A stretch of 21,943 nucleotides of DNA from a virus: positions 1-21,943 of the IMG/VR virus record IMGVR_UViG_3300033144_003702, one strand, 5' to 3'. Under the pieces are notes generated by a model, which did no database searches, was not told the origin of the DNA, and saw only the letters and a program-made list of their open reading frames with translations. This document shows, piece by piece, positions 6,735-17,722 of the stretch (its first letter is position 1; the number at the start of each line of letters is the position of its first letter). The translations under genes and the position numbers were made by a program.

Positions 6735-7337
6735 TCATTTCTTCCCATATAGGACCACCAGGAACCGCTTACTCGTCCGTGGCCATCCCGACTGTTCTCC
6801 TTGCCCTTCCGTTGAGATCTGCGTCCGTGGCCTCTCTTGCGTCGTAGAACGGCCTTCCGTTGGTATTTGGGAATTAATACTCGTCCGTGGCCTTTCTTGC
6901 GTCGTAGGCTGGCCTTCCGTTGAGATCTGCGTCCGTGGCCTCTCTTGCGTCTCCCCTTGCCCACCGGTTGGGATTACTACCTGTGGCCTCTCCCCCGTTT
7001 CCCCTTGCCCTTCCGCTGGTATTACCTCAACGAGACGCGCCACGACGGCCTTCTCTGGGCAATATCCGTCCGTGGCCTCTCCTCCGTCTTCCGCTGTCCT
7101 TCTCTTGGTATTTCTCGTCCACCCTGGTCCGAAGAGATATCCGTCCGTGGCCTCTCCTCCGTCTTCCGCTGTCCTTCCCTTGGGATCTGCTCCCGTGGCC
7201 TCTCCCCCGTTTACCCTTGCCCTTCCCTTGGTATTTCGCCAAGGAGGAGCGCCATGACGGGGCCCGCTGGGACAATACCCGTCCGTGGCCTTTCTTGCGT
7301 CGTAGGCTGGCCTTCCCTTGGTATTCACACTGAACAC
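6735..7337 (-). CDS. Doubtful 200-codon ORF spanning the repeat array
   Basis: A frame from GTG (7335-7337), with GGGGAG just upstream, runs through the whole repeat array without a stop. It overlaps the reductase gene end by 13 nt. The translation is low complexity: the first half reads like TKGRPAYDARKATDGY and the second half, after a one-nucleotide phase change near 7000-7070, like TEGQPTTQERPRT. The same DNA repeat is therefore read in two different frames. The other two frames are also largely open (basic GKASLRRKKGHGR-type repeats). This argues that the ORF may be a by-product of a stop-poor, purine-rich repeat and not a gene. I list it only because it has a plausible start. Confidence 0.2.
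   Translation of the reverse strand: MFSVNTKGRPAYDARKATDGYCPSGPRHGAPPWRNTKGRARVNGGEATGADPKGRTAEDGGEATDGYLFGPGWTRNTKRRTAEDGGEATDGYCPEKAVVARLVEVIPAEGQGETGERPQVVIPTGGQGETQERPRTQISTEGQPTTQERPRTSINSQIPTEGRSTTQERPRTQISTEGQGEQSGWPRTSKRFLVVLYGKK
6774..7326. repeat. Mosaic tandem repeat array, nine CCGTGGCC units
   Basis: Nine units share a core GTCCGTGGCC-TCTC and an end near CCTTCCCTTGGTATT (plus strand). Core starts are at about 6777, 6825, 6885, 6933, 6981 (CTGTGGCC), 7070, 7145, 7193 and 7283. The spacings are 48, 60, 48, 48, 89, 75, 48 and 90 bp. Unit middles fall into subtypes: GCGTCGTAGGCTGGCC (2 is close, 3, 9), CCGTCTTCCGCTGTCC (6, 7) and CCCCGTTT-CCCTTGCCC (5, 8, partly 4). A second module of about 42 bp, with CGCCAYGACGG and CTGGG-CAATA, follows units 5 and 8. 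The array starts immediately at the reductase stop codon. The spacing is too irregular for CRISPR. Function unknown. Confidence 0.85.
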
Positions 7338-9193
7338 TTCTCCCCATCGCAGCCACGTGGCGGTGTGACTTCGCCTCGAAAGCCTGTCCAGTCAAGAGGC
7401 ACTGTAGCCAGGGTGCGCACGTGATACTCCTTCTCTGTGATCTCTTCCTCAGGACACAGTTCGTAAGCCGACGTCGCTGGGTCGAACTCAAGACCAAGCG
7501 CTAACGACTTGACGCCGCGATCAGCCAAGTCGACTAGGGTGCGCTCTACTTGCCCACTGCAGTATTCATGCTCAGTGAAGTAAAGCGTGCAGGACACCGC
7601 GTTGTCGGACCACACCTCTTGTGTGCAAGCCAGGAGGTCGGCTTGTTCCTGAAAAGACGAATCCTTAGCCGTCCTGCCGCGAGTGCGCACAGGCACCTCG
7701 TAGACCAGGACGTCCTTCGCACCCTGCTTGTCCTCAACACCAAAGTAGCCTGCGCACTCCAGGACCTGGCGAATGGGGTCATCTCGGCCGATCCTGATAC
7801 GCCGCAACATGAAGGACGCGGTGGTAGCACGCACACGTCGGTAGGCACGTCTCAGGATCCTGCGTAGCTCGCTCTCTCCCACACGGTCCTGCCAGTCGGC
7901 CGTTCCTACTAGTGAGACGCCGATACGTCGGTTTCGACCTAGCACCTCGTTCGTGAAGTGGCGGTGTGTGGGTAGGAGAGCCACCGTCCCCGCGTAGAAC
8001 GCCGCGTGTTCTGCAGCCGCAATCATGTCCTCCTCGTCGGCACAGCGGCCAGGGAACGTCTCTACCACGTTGCACAGTTCGCGGTGGTCAAGCAGGATCT
8101 CACCACACGGGTTGACGAGCTTAGCTTTGTCGACCGAGTTGAAGAGGAGAAGCGCTCCTGGCTCTGCACGCTCAAACGCACCGTCGGCTAGACGACCCAC
8201 GCATTGCAGGAACTTGGCTCGCGTGTGAAACCGCAGCGTGTTATTCGACGCCCATCCCCACTCTGCACGTTCAGGGTGCAGGTCGTAGTTTTTCAAGTCC
8301 CAGAAGGTCTCGTCATCTGGGTCACCAAGCAGGATTTCTGCACTGCGACGCACATCACCCATAGAGACGGCAGCGCCGATCTGGTTGACAAGGTCAGCGA
8401 GTAGCCGCGTGGTATTGAAACCCAGGTCTCGCCGGTAGTAACCAAAAGAGTCGCGGATCCACTCGTGACATTGTAGCAACGGATCGGACCCAGAGGCGCG
8501 TCCACCCATGCCGCGTAGTGGTGACCCCTTGGGTCGAATCTCGCTGTAGTCGAAGATGGGGTGCGCGGCCAGGACTCCCATCTCGGCTTGCACTAGTCGA
8601 GAAATCGACTCCACCCAGCCTTCCCGTGTGTCGGGGATCACCCACTCGTAGCGGTAGGCTCGTGCTACCGGTTCGGCTACCACGCGCTTACCGAGTGAGA
8701 TACCGCAGCCTACACCAACACCACACATCAGAGCGTCGGTGATCCAGGCTAGATCGTGTGGCAGGTTCTCGTCTGCACGGATCTCGCTGGCCCCGCAGTT
8801 AAAGAGAGCCATCGACCCGCGATCACGAACCCACTTGGTTCCCATGGCGAAGAGACCACGACCAGGGGGACACCACTTGAACTCCATGAGCGACTTGGCC
8901 ATGAGCAGAGCCACTATCTGCATCTCTGGCTCATCCCATTTTTGACCAGCACGAACATACCAGTCCAAGCGGATCGACATCATGCCTTCGATCACTCGCA
9001 CTACGACGTCTAGCCAGGACTCACGTTGGTCATCGTCGTCTCGCGAGTAAGTCCTATAGAAAACGATCTCAGCAAAGTCACCACCGGGAAAAGGTTGGAC
9101 CGAAGCTTGTAGCTCCTTCAACCCGTCGATACTGAAACGCCAAATCGCTTGCACATACTTCCCGTGTTCCCTTACCTCGAATGTCGTCGTCAC
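7325..9193 (-). CDS. Class II (adenosylcobalamin-dependent) ribonucleoside-triphosphate reductase
   Basis: This 622-residue enzyme resembles the monomeric Lactobacillus leichmannii-type RTPR, which reduces NTPs to dNTPs with B12. Visible residues fit: FNCGASE (Cys about 131) and NPCGEILLDHRELC, with the two Cys about 363 and 374 spaced 11 apart as in the family's C408/C419. The C-terminal redox pair CDGEKC (C615/C620) matches the family's swinging-arm cysteines. It starts at GTG (9191-9193) in a GTGA overlap with the MazG-like gene, so the two are coupled. Because it acts on triphosphates, it would directly supply dGTP for the MazG-like enzyme. It is somewhat shorter than the family's usual length of about 740. 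No intein seen. Confidence 0.92.
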   Translation of the reverse strand: MTTTFEVREHGKYVQAIWRFSIDGLKELQASVQPFPGGDFAEIVFYRTYSRDDDDQRESWLDVVVRVIEGMMSIRLDWYVRAGQKWDEPEMQIVALLMAKSLMEFKWCPPGRGLFAMGTKWVRDRGSMALFNCGASEIRADENLPHDLAWITDALMCGVGVGCGISLGKRVVAEPVARAYRYEWVIPDTREGWVESISRLVQAEMGVLAAHPIFDYSEIRPKGSPLRGMGGRASGSDPLLQCHEWIRDSFGYYRRDLGFNTTRLLADLVNQIGAAVSMGDVRRSAEILLGDPDDETFWDLKNYDLHPERAEWGWASNNTLRFHTRAKFLQCVGRLADGAFERAEPGALLLFNSVDKAKLVNPCGEILLDHRELCNVVETFPGRCADEEDMIAAAEHAAFYAGTVALLPTHRHFTNEVLGRNRRIGVSLVGTADWQDRVGESELRRILRRAYRRVRATTASFMLRRIRIGRDDPIRQVLECAGYFGVEDKQGAKDVLVYEVPVRTRGRTAKDSSFQEQADLLACTQEVWSDNAVSCTLYFTEHEYCSGQVERTLVDLADRGVKSLALGLEFDPATSAYELCPEEEITEKEYHVRTLATVPLDWTGFRGEVTPPRGCDGEKCSV

Positions 9194-9513
9194 CGGCTGT
9201 CTCCTTTGCCGCGAATCTTACCGCGCACTGCTCTGCTGTTTATCTTTTCCATGTTCGACTCAATGAGTCGTTCTATGGTGAGCCCATTATGTAAGGCTAT
9301 CGACGTCAAATAAAAGAGGACGTCTCCTAACTCTAGTTCTATGGCTCTTTCGAATTCGTCGTCGAGACTCTCATAATCGAGACGCTCTCGACGCTTCATC
9401 TTACCCAACACCTCGCCTGTCTCTTCTGCGAGACCGAACACTTTCTCGTTCAGCGACGAACCAGCCATCATACCATTAATCCACTCTTGATAGTGTGTAA
9501 GCAGATCACTCAT
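9190..9513 (-). CDS. MazG-like nucleotide pyrophosphohydrolase (MazZ candidate)
   Basis: This 107-residue all-alpha NTP pyrophosphatase has the metal-binding pairs of the MazG fold: EETGE (E30, E31, E34) and ELGD (E61, D64). In Z-genome phages a MazG-like enzyme (MazZ) hydrolyses dGTP or GTP to the monophosphate, giving PurZ its substrate. The present protein has the right family, size and genomic company for that role, but sequence alone cannot prove dGTP specificity. An AAGGTG Shine-Dalgarno lies about 9 nt before the ATG. It is the first gene after the 452-bp palindrome region and overlaps the reductase start (GTGA). A remnant resembling its first residues lies at 15113-15181. Confidence 0.85.
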   Translation of the reverse strand: MSDLLTHYQEWINGMMAGSSLNEKVFGLAEETGEVLGKMKRRERLDYESLDDEFERAIELELGDVLFYLTSIALHNGLTIERLIESNMEKINSRAVRGKIRGKGDSR

Positions 9514-15116: not shown

Positions 15117-15181
15117 GCAATACCCCGCGAGTCTGACATTCCTGTCATCCTACCATCCACCCACTCTTGGTATTGATTAAG
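15113..15181 (-). pseudogene. Remnant of a mazG-like N terminus between purZ and polymerase
   Basis: A 22-codon open stretch reads LNQYQEWVDGRMTG and then runs to a stop at 15113-15115. It matches the beginning of the mazG-like gene at 9190-9513, LTHYQEWINGMMAG, with 8 of 14 identical residues and conservative V/I, D/N and T/A changes. The DNA also matches over CAAGAGTGG and beyond. The copy has no start codon of its own, and its first codon overlaps the purZ stop. It appears to be what is left of a second mazZ adjacent to purZ. Confidence 0.6.
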
Positions 15182-16661
15182 CGGGAACTCCGGCAGACCA
15201 CAGCTTAAGCTGTGCCGCATCGAGTGCACCAGGTCCGTAGCCAACGATAGCATTCTCGTCGATCATCAAGCACTCGTCACGAATGCCACCCACCTCTTCT
15301 GGCTTATTTTGGTAGTAGTCACCAAAGGACAGGAAGATGCGGGGTTTCTTGCCGAAGAGGGAGGCCACCTCAGTCAGATAACCAGGAGCCCACTTAGCCA
15401 CACGACGCAGACGCTTCGTCACCGTCGTAGTCTCGCGACTACGGAGCGTCTCAGCAGGAATCCCGCTTGTGCGAGCTACCTCTTCCCAGGTCGTCTCGTT
15501 CTCCATGGGGCCAGACGGTCCCGCCACACGAATGGGATGCGTCCTGGCGACAAGCCACCACTCCACATCCCACGCTACGCCGAGACCGAGATCAGCCAGG
15601 AGGCCAGCCGGTCCCGTTTCTCTCGACGTCGTGTGTGGATACCCACCACCGATCAACGAGAGGCCGATGCCTTGCGTTGCCTCGATCAAGATGTCGCGTC
15701 CACTCCGCAGGAGGTTACGCAGCAACGAGCCGACAGGCGCGACCTTGACGCCTGGCAGATCCGGCACTCCACCGATTTTGCCGAACGTGTCAGCCACACG
15801 CAGAACGCGCAGCGCCATAGCACCACCTGTCCCTGTCAGCGTAGACCCGATGCTCGACAGCGTGTAGTCCCGCTCAAGCTGCCTACCGTGCTCGTCCACC
15901 AACGCTACCGACGGGTCGATAGTGACGGTGCAACCCGCAGGCACGTAAGGCAGTTCCTTTGCCAGGACTGCTGCATCGACGACAGCGCCAGGACCGATCA
16001 ACAGATCCGTTCCAGGCGAAGCCCAGGGTGTGGCCGAAGGGAGGTGACGGAAGACCGCGTATTCCCCGTTCGGACACTCGATACGATGGCCAGCGTTCGG
16101 ACCACCGGACCTGGCGAACGCAGCGTAGCGCTTATTCTCCAGTGCCTTGGTAGCAACGAGCCAGGAGCAGACTTTGCCCTTGCCTTCGCTCCCCCACTGT
16201 GCACCGACGATGCCGGTCACCTGGCCATGCGTCGTCTCGCCATCGTAGACGACTAGGTTCTGCAGCACGTGGCTTACGATCCTCTCTGGCTTCCAACGTG
16301 GAACGTGCAGATCACCTGGCTCCGTAACCTTGTAGTGATCCTCGCCTATGCAGACGACGATCCCACCGTGGTGGCGCACCAGATCAGCCTGCGCTTCAGA
16401 ACGCACAGCATCAATTACGACTCGATCATAAGGCGCTAGGCGTTCACCAAAAATCCAATAGATGTCTTCTTGGTCAAGTTCGTTTCCAAACTCAAACAAC
16501 TCATCGTTAGTTGGGACCGTCCTGCCATACGCCCCCTCTGCTGCAAGCTTGCGCAGCAGAGAGGACGTCGACACTACGGACCAACCTAATCGGCGGAGAA
16601 GCTTAGCTACTGTCGTCTTCCCAATCTTCGGGGATCCAGTTAGCGCGATCAGATGGGCCAT
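15177..16661 (-). CDS. purZ: Fusion of a dNMP-kinase-like domain and PurZ (2-aminoadenylosuccinate synthetase)
   Basis: This is a 494-residue fusion. Residues 1 to about 147 are a P-loop kinase: Walker A GSPKIGKT (9-16), and VVIDAVRSEAQADLVRHHGGIVVCI (81-105), whose DxVR...GG pattern recalls T4 gp1-type deoxynucleoside-monophosphate kinases. Residues 148-494 follow the adenylosuccinate synthetase fold: GAQWGSEGKGK (153-163), SGGPNAGH (185-192, catalytic-type His192), GPGAVVDAAVL, IEATQG and TTSRETG. S158 replaces the Asp that activates IMP in PurA, the known PurZ substitution that makes space for the 2-amino group of dGMP. PurZ joins dGMP and aspartate to N6-succino-2-amino-dAMP. The fused kinase may act on dGMP or dZMP. 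Start ATG, with AAAGGA close upstream. Confidence 0.92.
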   Translation of the reverse strand: MAHLIALTGSPKIGKTTVAKLLRRLGWSVVSTSSLLRKLAAEGAYGRTVPTNDELFEFGNELDQEDIYWIFGERLAPYDRVVIDAVRSEAQADLVRHHGGIVVCIGEDHYKVTEPGDLHVPRWKPERIVSHVLQNLVVYDGETTHGQVTGIVGAQWGSEGKGKVCSWLVATKALENKRYAAFARSGGPNAGHRIECPNGEYAVFRHLPSATPWASPGTDLLIGPGAVVDAAVLAKELPYVPAGCTVTIDPSVALVDEHGRQLERDYTLSSIGSTLTGTGGAMALRVLRVADTFGKIGGVPDLPGVKVAPVGSLLRNLLRSGRDILIEATQGIGLSLIGGGYPHTTSRETGPAGLLADLGLGVAWDVEWWLVARTHPIRVAGPSGPMENETTWEEVARTSGIPAETLRSRETTTVTKRLRRVAKWAPGYLTEVASLFGKKPRIFLSFGDYYQNKPEEVGGIRDECLMIDENAIVGYGPGALDAAQLKLWSAGVPA

Positions 16662-16666
16662 CCTTT

Positions 16667-17722
16667 CTAACCCCAGTCGTCGTCAGCGTCGTCCGCGTCA
16701 GCGTCGATGCCGGTGTCCTCGTCGAAGCCACCGTCGTCGTCGGTGTCCTCGTCTTCGGCCACCTCCTCGTCGGCCTCTTCCTCTTCCGGCTCTTGCTCTT
16801 CGCCTTCAGCCGCAGCCTGGATCGAGTTAAGCCGACGGTTCAGCTTCTCGACGTAGTCCGCTCGCAGTGCGCGGTTGGTCTCGTCGGCAAAGAACGCCTC
16901 GATGCACTCCAACTGCATGAGCGAGATCGGGCCGGTGTTGGCGTTCGCCAGTGCATAGGCGAAGCCAGAACGCGCAGTCTTCTGCACGATGTCCCACTGC
17001 GAAGCGACGCGGAAGCGAGCGGGTGCACGACCCACCAGCTTACCGTAGCGCTTGGCAAACGCTTCCTTCTTGCTGTCCTCGATGCCCTTGAGTTGTGACA
17101 GGACACAGGGTGCCTTGGTGCCACGGAAATCGCAGATCGCGAGGAAGGCAGGAGCCAGGTCGTCGTGCAGAGCGTCTGCACCCGGCAGGATCATGAGCAC
17201 GGACTGCACGCAGTCCTTGATCACGCGACCACCGGACTTGGCCTGCCAACCCTGATCCTCCATGAAGACGTCCACCAACGCGTTGGACTCGTCGGTCGTA
17301 GCCCAGTAGCGGAACTCCTCCAGGACGACGAACGCAGCACTCGACAGGTTGTAGAACGCCTCTTCTGTCTTCAGGTAGGGCGTGCCCATTGTGAGCGAAC
17401 CCAGTGCCTGCTTGACGTCTGATGCGATGCTGGCCTTCTTGTTATAGAAGCCAACCCAGGGAACGCCACCACCACCGGAGGGAAGTTCTACCTTGCCCTC
17501 TTCGTAGCCACCGACCTCAGCCAGATAGCCCTTAGGTGCTGACCCATTCCTGGCCGGAAGCTGCTTCTTGCGTGAGGCTGGCTTCTTTTTCTTCACCACA
17601 GGCTTCGTCGCCTTCTTTTTGGCGACTTTCTTTTTCGCCACTTTCTTTTTCGCTTTCTTCTTGGCGACTTTCTTTTTCGCCTTCTTTTTCGCCTTCTTTT
17701 TTGCTACCTTGGCCTTAGCCAT
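16667..17722 (-). CDS. Protein with histone-like Lys-rich head and SSB-like acidic tail
   Basis: This 351-residue protein has three parts. Residues 1 to about 54 are a histone H1-like Ala/Lys tail (repeated AKKKAKKKV). A core of about 240 residues follows, with no recognised motif. About 45 mostly Glu/Asp residues then end in DADDADDDWG. An acidic C-terminal tail with a terminal aromatic residue is typical of phage and bacterial ssDNA-binding proteins, where it recruits replication partners. The gene lies between a helicase/nuclease pair and purZ-polymerase, the right place for a replicative SSB. The two tails could neutralise each other or gate DNA binding. The SSB role is inference. The ATG overlaps the preceding nuclease stop by 8 nt. 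Confidence 0.7.
   Translation of the reverse strand: MAKAKVAKKKAKKKAKKKVAKKKAKKKVAKKKVAKKKATKPVVKKKKPASRKKQLPARNGSAPKGYLAEVGGYEEGKVELPSGGGGVPWVGFYNKKASIASDVKQALGSLTMGTPYLKTEEAFYNLSSAAFVVLEEFRYWATTDESNALVDVFMEDQGWQAKSGGRVIKDCVQSVLMILPGADALHDDLAPAFLAICDFRGTKAPCVLSQLKGIEDSKKEAFAKRYGKLVGRAPARFRVASQWDIVQKTARSGFAYALANANTGPISLMQLECIEAFFADETNRALRADYVEKLNRRLNSIQAAAEGEEQEPEEEEADEEVAEDEDTDDDGGFDEDTGIDADADDADDDWG

Follow-up and report, generated by a model that had tools for sequence, protein, structure and literature searches.

Synthesis of 2-aminoadenine (Z) is regarded as a phage trait, in which PurZ is a stand-alone protein and the kinase steps are left to the host. The window analysed here, a 21,943-base record of an uncultured virus classified as a fragment, contains a reading frame (P0001) in which a PurZ-type synthetase follows a P-loop kinase-like domain. 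This raises the question of what the two halves do together and whether the fusion belongs to one phage or to a family.

The fused gene and its neighbours

The features of the window are presented in Table 1. The fusion in P0001 is real: the frame is uninterrupted and has no internal stop. The motifs read earlier in an initial annotation lie where it placed them, on the minus strand (it gave no strand), with VIDAVR at residues 82–87 and HHGG at residues 97–100. An assembly artefact was considered and is unlikely, because independent contigs as well as complete genomes carry this pair of domains. A split gene with two starts was also rejected: GTG codon 148 has, by eye, no convincing ribosome-binding site and the frame contains no stop, which argues that the fusion is the main product.

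Table 1. Positions of the fused gene, its motifs and selected neighbouring genes in the window
Feature	Position	Strand	Basis
P0001, fused P-loop kinase-like/PurZ-type synthetase	15177..16661	-	Single open frame, 494 aa, ATG at 16661
P-loop NMP-kinase-fold domain, residues 1–147, compact, no LID	16221..16661	-	Pfam AAA_18/AAA_17, PHROG, family HMM, AF2 and Foldseek
Walker A GSPKIGKT, residues 9–16	16614..16637	-	Sequence motif
D84-A-V-R87, DxxR motif conserved in the fusion family	16401..16412	-	Alignment
GTG codon 148, possible internal start for the PurZ domain alone	16218..16220	-	Shine-Dalgarno unconvincing by eye
PurZ-type (2-aminoadenylosuccinate synthetase-like) domain, residues 148–494; 452–494 poorly predicted	15180..16220	-	Profiles, PDB, AF2 and Foldseek
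GAQWGSEGKGK, residues 153–163	16173..16205	-	Sequence motif
Ser158, at the position of PurA catalytic Asp13	16188..16190	-	Sequence and alignment
Asp448, nucleotide-donor specificity position, PurA/PurZ0-like	15318..15320	-	Alignment with S-2L PurZ Q308 (PMC8342488)
Family A DNA polymerase, 705 aa	12999..15116	-	Profiles; clusters with ordinary PolA of phages
MazG-type pyrophosphohydrolase, may supply dGMP from dGTP	9190..9513	-	Profiles; ~20% identical to S-2L MazZ
Class II (B12-type) ribonucleotide reductase-like protein	7325..9193	-	Profile
Gene immediately upstream of P0001, N-terminus with Lys/Ala repeat, no family	16667..17722	-	Profiles

The synthetase fold (PurA/PurZ) of P0001 spans residues ~148–450. 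The C-terminal part is matched by Pfam Adenylsucc_synt (E=3.5e-25), PHROG 1211 (‘2-aminooxy adenylosuccinate synthetase’, 1e-49) and NCBIfam PurZ (3.6e-52; the 177 bits lie below the curated cut-off of 300), and among PDB sequences by 7vf6 (8.5e-29, the best match), 5k7x (1.3e-26) and 7odx (5e-22). The matches of the N-terminal part to P-loop kinase families are weak yet consistent: AAA_18 of Pfam (1.3e-5, under its curated cut-off), the phage dNMP kinases of PHROG 139 (4e-6), which share the P-loop kinase fold, with a match limited to residues 1–42, and the archaeal adenylate kinase 4cvn (2.7e-5). Both domains were modelled by AlphaFold2 (mean pLDDT 81.8, pTM 0.71), with an unreliable tail at residues 452–494. 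In Foldseek, the C-terminal domain retrieves PurA, PurZ and PurZ0 (5k7x, 7odx, 7vf6), and the N-terminal domain adenylate-kinase-related proteins (3h0k, 3lw7) and gluconate-type kinases; none of the viral structure models among the best matches recognisably covers both domains. Profiles, structures and alignment thus bear out the two folds that had been proposed, including Ser158 in place of the catalytic Asp.

Concerning the remainder of the window, there are also genes for a helicase, a PD-(D/E)XK nuclease, a terminase, a portal protein and a DNA methyltransferase. The polymerase clusters with the ordinary PolA of phages (SH-aLRT 100), apart from both DpoZ-1 and DpoZ-2, in a comparison from which the polymerase of contig L009 was left out; DpoZ is also missing from S-2L (PMC8342488), so that an ordinary PolA is not decisive. 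DatZ, DutZ and DmtZ were not recognised in the 21.9-kb fragment of this incomplete phage genome, and the MazG-type protein was considered as MazZ and is not assignable at its level of identity. With an ordinary PolA and no DatZ seen in the fragment, a fully Z-substituted genome is unproven. The gene upstream of P0001 has a Lys/Ala-rich repeat at its start (AKKKVAKKKAKK) and an acidic tail at its end. A repetitive stretch with a unit of about 60 bases is located at 6735–7337, adjoining the end of the ribonucleotide reductase gene, and its ORF is unlikely to be a normal coding gene.

Synthetase active site and kinase-derived domain

The pocket of P0001 was mapped onto S-2L PurZ, using the residue roles given in PMC8342488. 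The dGMP pocket is kept at S158, N189, A190, G191, H192, G272, S273, T274, R288, Q330, T345, R378, V379, T412–T415 and R419, and the only changes are His343 (Y203 in S-2L) and Thr344 (C204). The phosphate contacts, the TTVT aspartate loop and both catalytic residues (Arg, His) are also retained. R288, which contacts the alpha-phosphate by reaching across from the partner protomer, is among the kept residues; the corresponding Arg is found in only 8 of 76 cellular fusions, whose substrate may therefore differ. Concerning the NTP site, R193 replaces Thr53 of S-2L. The position facing the donor base is Gln308 in S-2L, Asn297 in phiVC8 and Asp448 in P0001, and Asp is common to the sampled PurA, PurZ0 and fusion sequences at this position. 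Asp448 predicts a guanine nucleotide, GTP, as phosphoryl donor of P0001, in place of the ATP or dATP named in the initial annotation. Section 24 of PMC12884076 gives ATP as the donor of PurZ0 and GTP as that of PurZ, which is opposite to the donor-site residues and to the PurZ structures with ATP; this may be a slip in that paper, and our assignment follows the residues.

P0001 thus resembles PurZ of S-2L and phiVC8 (7odx, 6fm1) in fold, in Ser for the PurA Asp and in nearly all dGMP contacts, whereas those enzymes have no kinase domain, an ATP/dATP-type donor pocket and a clade of their own. With PurZ0 of the actinobacteriophages Wayne and Ghobes (7vf6) it shares the Ser motif and Asp at the donor position; PurZ0 differs in being stand-alone, accompanied by DutZ/DmtZ (PMC12884076), and likewise in a separate clade. 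The GTP-type pocket, together with a high similarity of P0001 to PurA of archaea (5k7x), could also suggest a PurA-like paralogue converting IMP or dIMP to ordinary adenylosuccinate, in which Ser158 would be a neutral change. We consider this very improbable: Ser replaces the catalytic Asp in every sampled member of the clade, which the known PurA mechanism does not permit, and Asp13 is 99% conserved in PurA (PMC12884076).

With a family HMM made from the other fusions' kinase domains, P0001 being left out, P0001 scores 35.9 bits; unrelated P-loop proteins from the same neighbourhoods reach at most 17.1 and shuffled sequences at most 4.5. Across 32 diverse fusions the near-invariant positions are the P-loop Gly/Lys (G14/K15, 32/32), an Arg after helix 2, a Gly/Leu-Asp segment, a Trp, the DxxR motif, a Gln, an Arg, a His, two LID arginines (32/32 and 29/32) and a Glu, a pattern as would be expected for working NMP kinases. 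P0001 keeps Walker A, G59, L62-D63, W69, D84xxR87, Q91 and R96; it has lost the Ala-Asp, both LID arginines and the conserved Glu, and Asn52 occupies the position of the conserved Arg48. The whole LID region (~40 aa) is absent in comparison with all other fusions aligned. In the AlphaFold2 model, strand 101–105 leads directly to strand 118–120, which occupies the point of the expected lid insertion, and then to helix 125–139. With the LID and its arginines missing and Asn52 in place of Arg48, the domain probably binds nucleotide with poor or no phosphotransfer, and working phosphotransfer by residues 1–147 is doubtful on sequence and model. The operons of contigs L206 and L207 have a similar pattern, a truncated fused kinase next to a complete stand-alone kinase. 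More generally, an extra stand-alone kinase of the same family is present in about 14–15 fusion operons (e.g. L098:8881-9435, L196:12374-12925, L180, L186).

These features bear on a bifunctional enzyme, in which an active N-terminal kinase for dGMP or dZMP would place two steps of dZTP synthesis in one polypeptide. The Walker A lysine and DxxR are intact in P0001, the catalytic positions are strongly conserved in the other fusions, and the extra kinases indicate that the kinase matters to the family. The losses listed above and the compact, lidless core of the model nevertheless make such an enzyme unlikely for P0001, and phosphorylation of dZMP by this domain, suggested in the initial annotation, is weakened accordingly.

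Besides the features computed here (fold, fusion, Ser substitution, pocket residues, missing lid and family), the reading that we somewhat favour is that P0001 is a dGMP-using succinyl-purine synthetase joined to a nucleotide-binding, probably regulatory, kinase-derived module. It would condense dGMP with aspartate, presumably using GTP, to N6-succino-2-amino-dAMP, the first committed step towards Z nucleotides; the MazG-type hydrolase in the window could make the dGMP. The N-terminal domain derives from a P-loop nucleoside-monophosphate kinase of the subtype found in cellular and phage fusions. As the lid over the phosphates is gone, it would probably bind nucleotide and regulate, tether or dimerise the synthetase rather than phosphorylate dZMP. 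Against the regulatory role, a lidless domain can in principle transfer phosphate or borrow arginines from a partner; against a Z pathway, the usual Z toolkit is incomplete in the fragment and the polymerase is not of the DpoZ type. The very long branch of P0001 and its identity of at most 39–40% to any relative also make function transfer risky.

Distribution and phylogeny of the fusions

The kinase-PurZ(Ser) fusion is a widespread, mostly cellular architecture and not a one-off, and the main result of this work is that P0001 points to a family crossing viruses, bacteria and archaea. Known phage PurZ is stand-alone, as the initial annotation had stated: no fusion is found in 184 isolate phage records with a PurZ match (P0001 as query) or in 218 isolate phage records searched with a full-kinase fusion. 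A single-sequence scan of IMG/VR with P0001 gave no match, and profile scans were required to detect further fusions in this database. With these, the domain pair recurs in five unrelated phage types (L009/L010, L014, L018, L042 and L088), which have almost no other genes in common, and in contigs L098/L214, L212 and L216 together with the cellular operon described below. In genome contigs, 79 loci were found in many bacterial phyla and some archaea, including complete chromosomes; they are 46–60% identical to the L018 fusion and three of them (L179, L206, L207) have no full kinase in frame. Like these phage types, at least 75 cellular genomes or plasmids have the architecture with complete kinase domains and Ser, the Ser in the 79-locus scan being partly a selection effect as one search pattern contained it. 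Plasmid matches covering at least 80% were found in eight records.

The cellular fusions, which are annotated only as ‘adenylosuccinate synthetase’, share with P0001 the domain order, the kinase subtype and the Ser motif (e.g. Sorangium L138, Agrobacterium plasmid L315); unlike P0001, they have a complete kinase with LID, mostly lack the alpha-phosphate Arg and lie in an operon of their own. No paper on a PurZ-kinase fusion was found in a literature search, and the word ‘kinase’ is absent from the 2026 PurZ survey.

When bacterial PurA and long and short archaeal PurA serve as outgroups of the tree, P0001 and all other Ser-type enzymes fall into a single clade (100/99), apart from the Asp-type archaeal and bacterial PurA. 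One side (95/89) comprises PurZ, PurZ0 and related viral sequences; the other (95/88) comprises P0001, several viral sequences without the fusion and the kinase-fusion clade (100/99), which thus stands apart from PurZ and PurZ0. The phage fusions L009, L014 and L018 are nested among cellular fusions, and so the gene moves between phages and cells; L042 and L088 are basal. P0001 lies outside the PurZ and PurZ0 clades, beyond the 95/89 branch, but its branch is long (~2.2 changes per site), so its position is uncertain. Its identification as PurZ therefore holds for the Ser-type active site and the dGMP contacts and not for membership of either named clade; it belongs to a third Ser-type lineage. 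In the best tree P0001 is outside the fusion clade, and monophyly with the fusions is not rejected (p-AU 0.173). As its kinase is of the family subtype by the HMM, one fusion event with later divergence is a simpler history than two.

A kinase gene beside PurZ in known Z phages was considered as the source of the fusion and rejected: no P-loop kinase is found among the scanned genes just downstream of PurZ in Galactica, Ghobes, SBlackberry, PinkFriday, PSA28 or Bm1. In contig L013 (9920-12462) a non-fused PurZ-type gene overlaps a P-loop kinase gene, yet the kinase scores only 24 bits with the family HMM; two dUTPase-like genes follow, and a PurB-like gene is found further along (16389-17675).

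Two other gene fusions were seen in the fusion-carrying phages. Near the fusion in L018 (2144-2926) and L042 (2677-3378), a nucleoside deoxyribosyltransferase-like domain (DUF1937/DUF4406) is joined to a MazG-like C-terminal part, a logic like that of the DmtZ-DutZ fusion of PurZ0 phages. In L009 (12897-15884), a domain of the Uracil-DNA-glycosylase superfamily is located at the N-terminus of the family A DNA polymerase.

The cellular operon and a possible role in defence

The cellular fusions are found in a conserved operon of an IrrE-type protease/macrodomain protein, kinase-PurZ(Ser) and DUF7002, seen among contigs L131–L209 (e.g. L138:9806-12276, L144:8221-12282, L196:8554-12925). DUF7002 is located immediately downstream of the fusion in 68 of the 79 cellular loci, with a median overlap of 3 bases, and the IrrE-type metallopeptidase protein directly precedes it in 59. 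HExxH is present in 58 of 61 IrrE-type proteins (two IMG/VR loci counted), and a macrodomain is located at their end in the examples scanned. The model of DUF7002 (pLDDT 94.3) finds E. coli DarT1 as best PDB match, followed by Tpt1/KptA and DarTG; the TM scores are 0.25–0.45, so that the relation to DarT is distant. No paper on DUF7002 was found in a literature search. Toxin-antitoxin systems that act against phages are known in which DarT is paired with a macrodomain antitoxin, or DarT1 with NADAR (PMC11543638).

At some loci a second kinase or proteins of MazG-like or HD/YfbR-like type are also encoded; the HD proteins of rhizobial operons were considered as DatZ and have only weak YfbR-like similarity. 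A full-length ordinary PurA-family match is also present in all ten fusion-bearing genomes checked. Near the fusion loci are Type I restriction genes, VapBC, an AAA ATPase with a UvrD helicase, AbiJ-like genes and integrases. The distribution of the operon is sparse and patchy: when 398 genomes of one phylum were searched through DUF7002, a route free of the Ser selection effect, three strong hits resulted, each adjoining a Ser-type kinase fusion and one of them in the genome on which the search was centred. This pattern is typical of defence modules. The fusions themselves have no PADLOC model, and only their P-loop part is matched, weakly, as the N-terminal part of dCTP deaminases (PADLOC dCTPase, 3.4e-6 for L138; NCBIfam NF041025, 0.0076–0.037); P0001 itself is not matched by PADLOC dCTPase. 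AvcD/anti-phage dCTP deaminase likewise has a P-loop domain ahead of a nucleotide-pool enzyme, in its case a deaminase and not a synthetase. Taken as a whole, the cellular operon looks like an undescribed DarTG-like phage-defence system.

We tentatively propose a broader reading, in which the fusion is a third, mainly cellular branch of Z-type purine enzymes, used by bacteria and archaea within an undescribed mobile defence operon (IrrE protease with macrodomain, kinase-PurZ and DUF7002, sometimes with MazG or HD nucleotide hydrolases). The modified purine nucleotide made there would arm, be sensed by or protect against the DarT1-like ADP-ribosyltransferase, and phages including that of the window would carry versions of the enzyme. 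P0001 could be a phage-captured relative of the cellular operon enzyme that serves in host–phage conflict (counter-defence or pool poisoning) and not in a Z genome. Its place on the fusion side of the Ser-type tree, the unrejected grouping with the fusion clade, the nested phage fusions L009, L014 and L018 and the ordinary PolA are consistent with this. Such a role is quite unlikely, however: Arg288, lost in most cellular fusions, is kept, the window contains neither DUF7002 nor a macrodomain partner (the IrrE-macro/DUF7002 operon is also absent from the other phage-type fusions), and a neighbourhood of PolA, MazG and ribonucleotide reductase fits metabolism equally well.

For phage biology, P0001 represents a third lineage of PurZ-like enzymes and a naturally occurring fusion of kinase and synthetase with which the dZTP pathway may be dissected. 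The presence of Ser-type kinase fusions across bacterial and archaeal phyla would mean that cells may also run Z chemistry, and a use in defence is suggested by their location, flanked by genes for a macrodomain protein and a DarT-like ADP-ribosyltransferase. If the cellular enzymes make Z nucleotides, the origin of PurZ would become directly testable.
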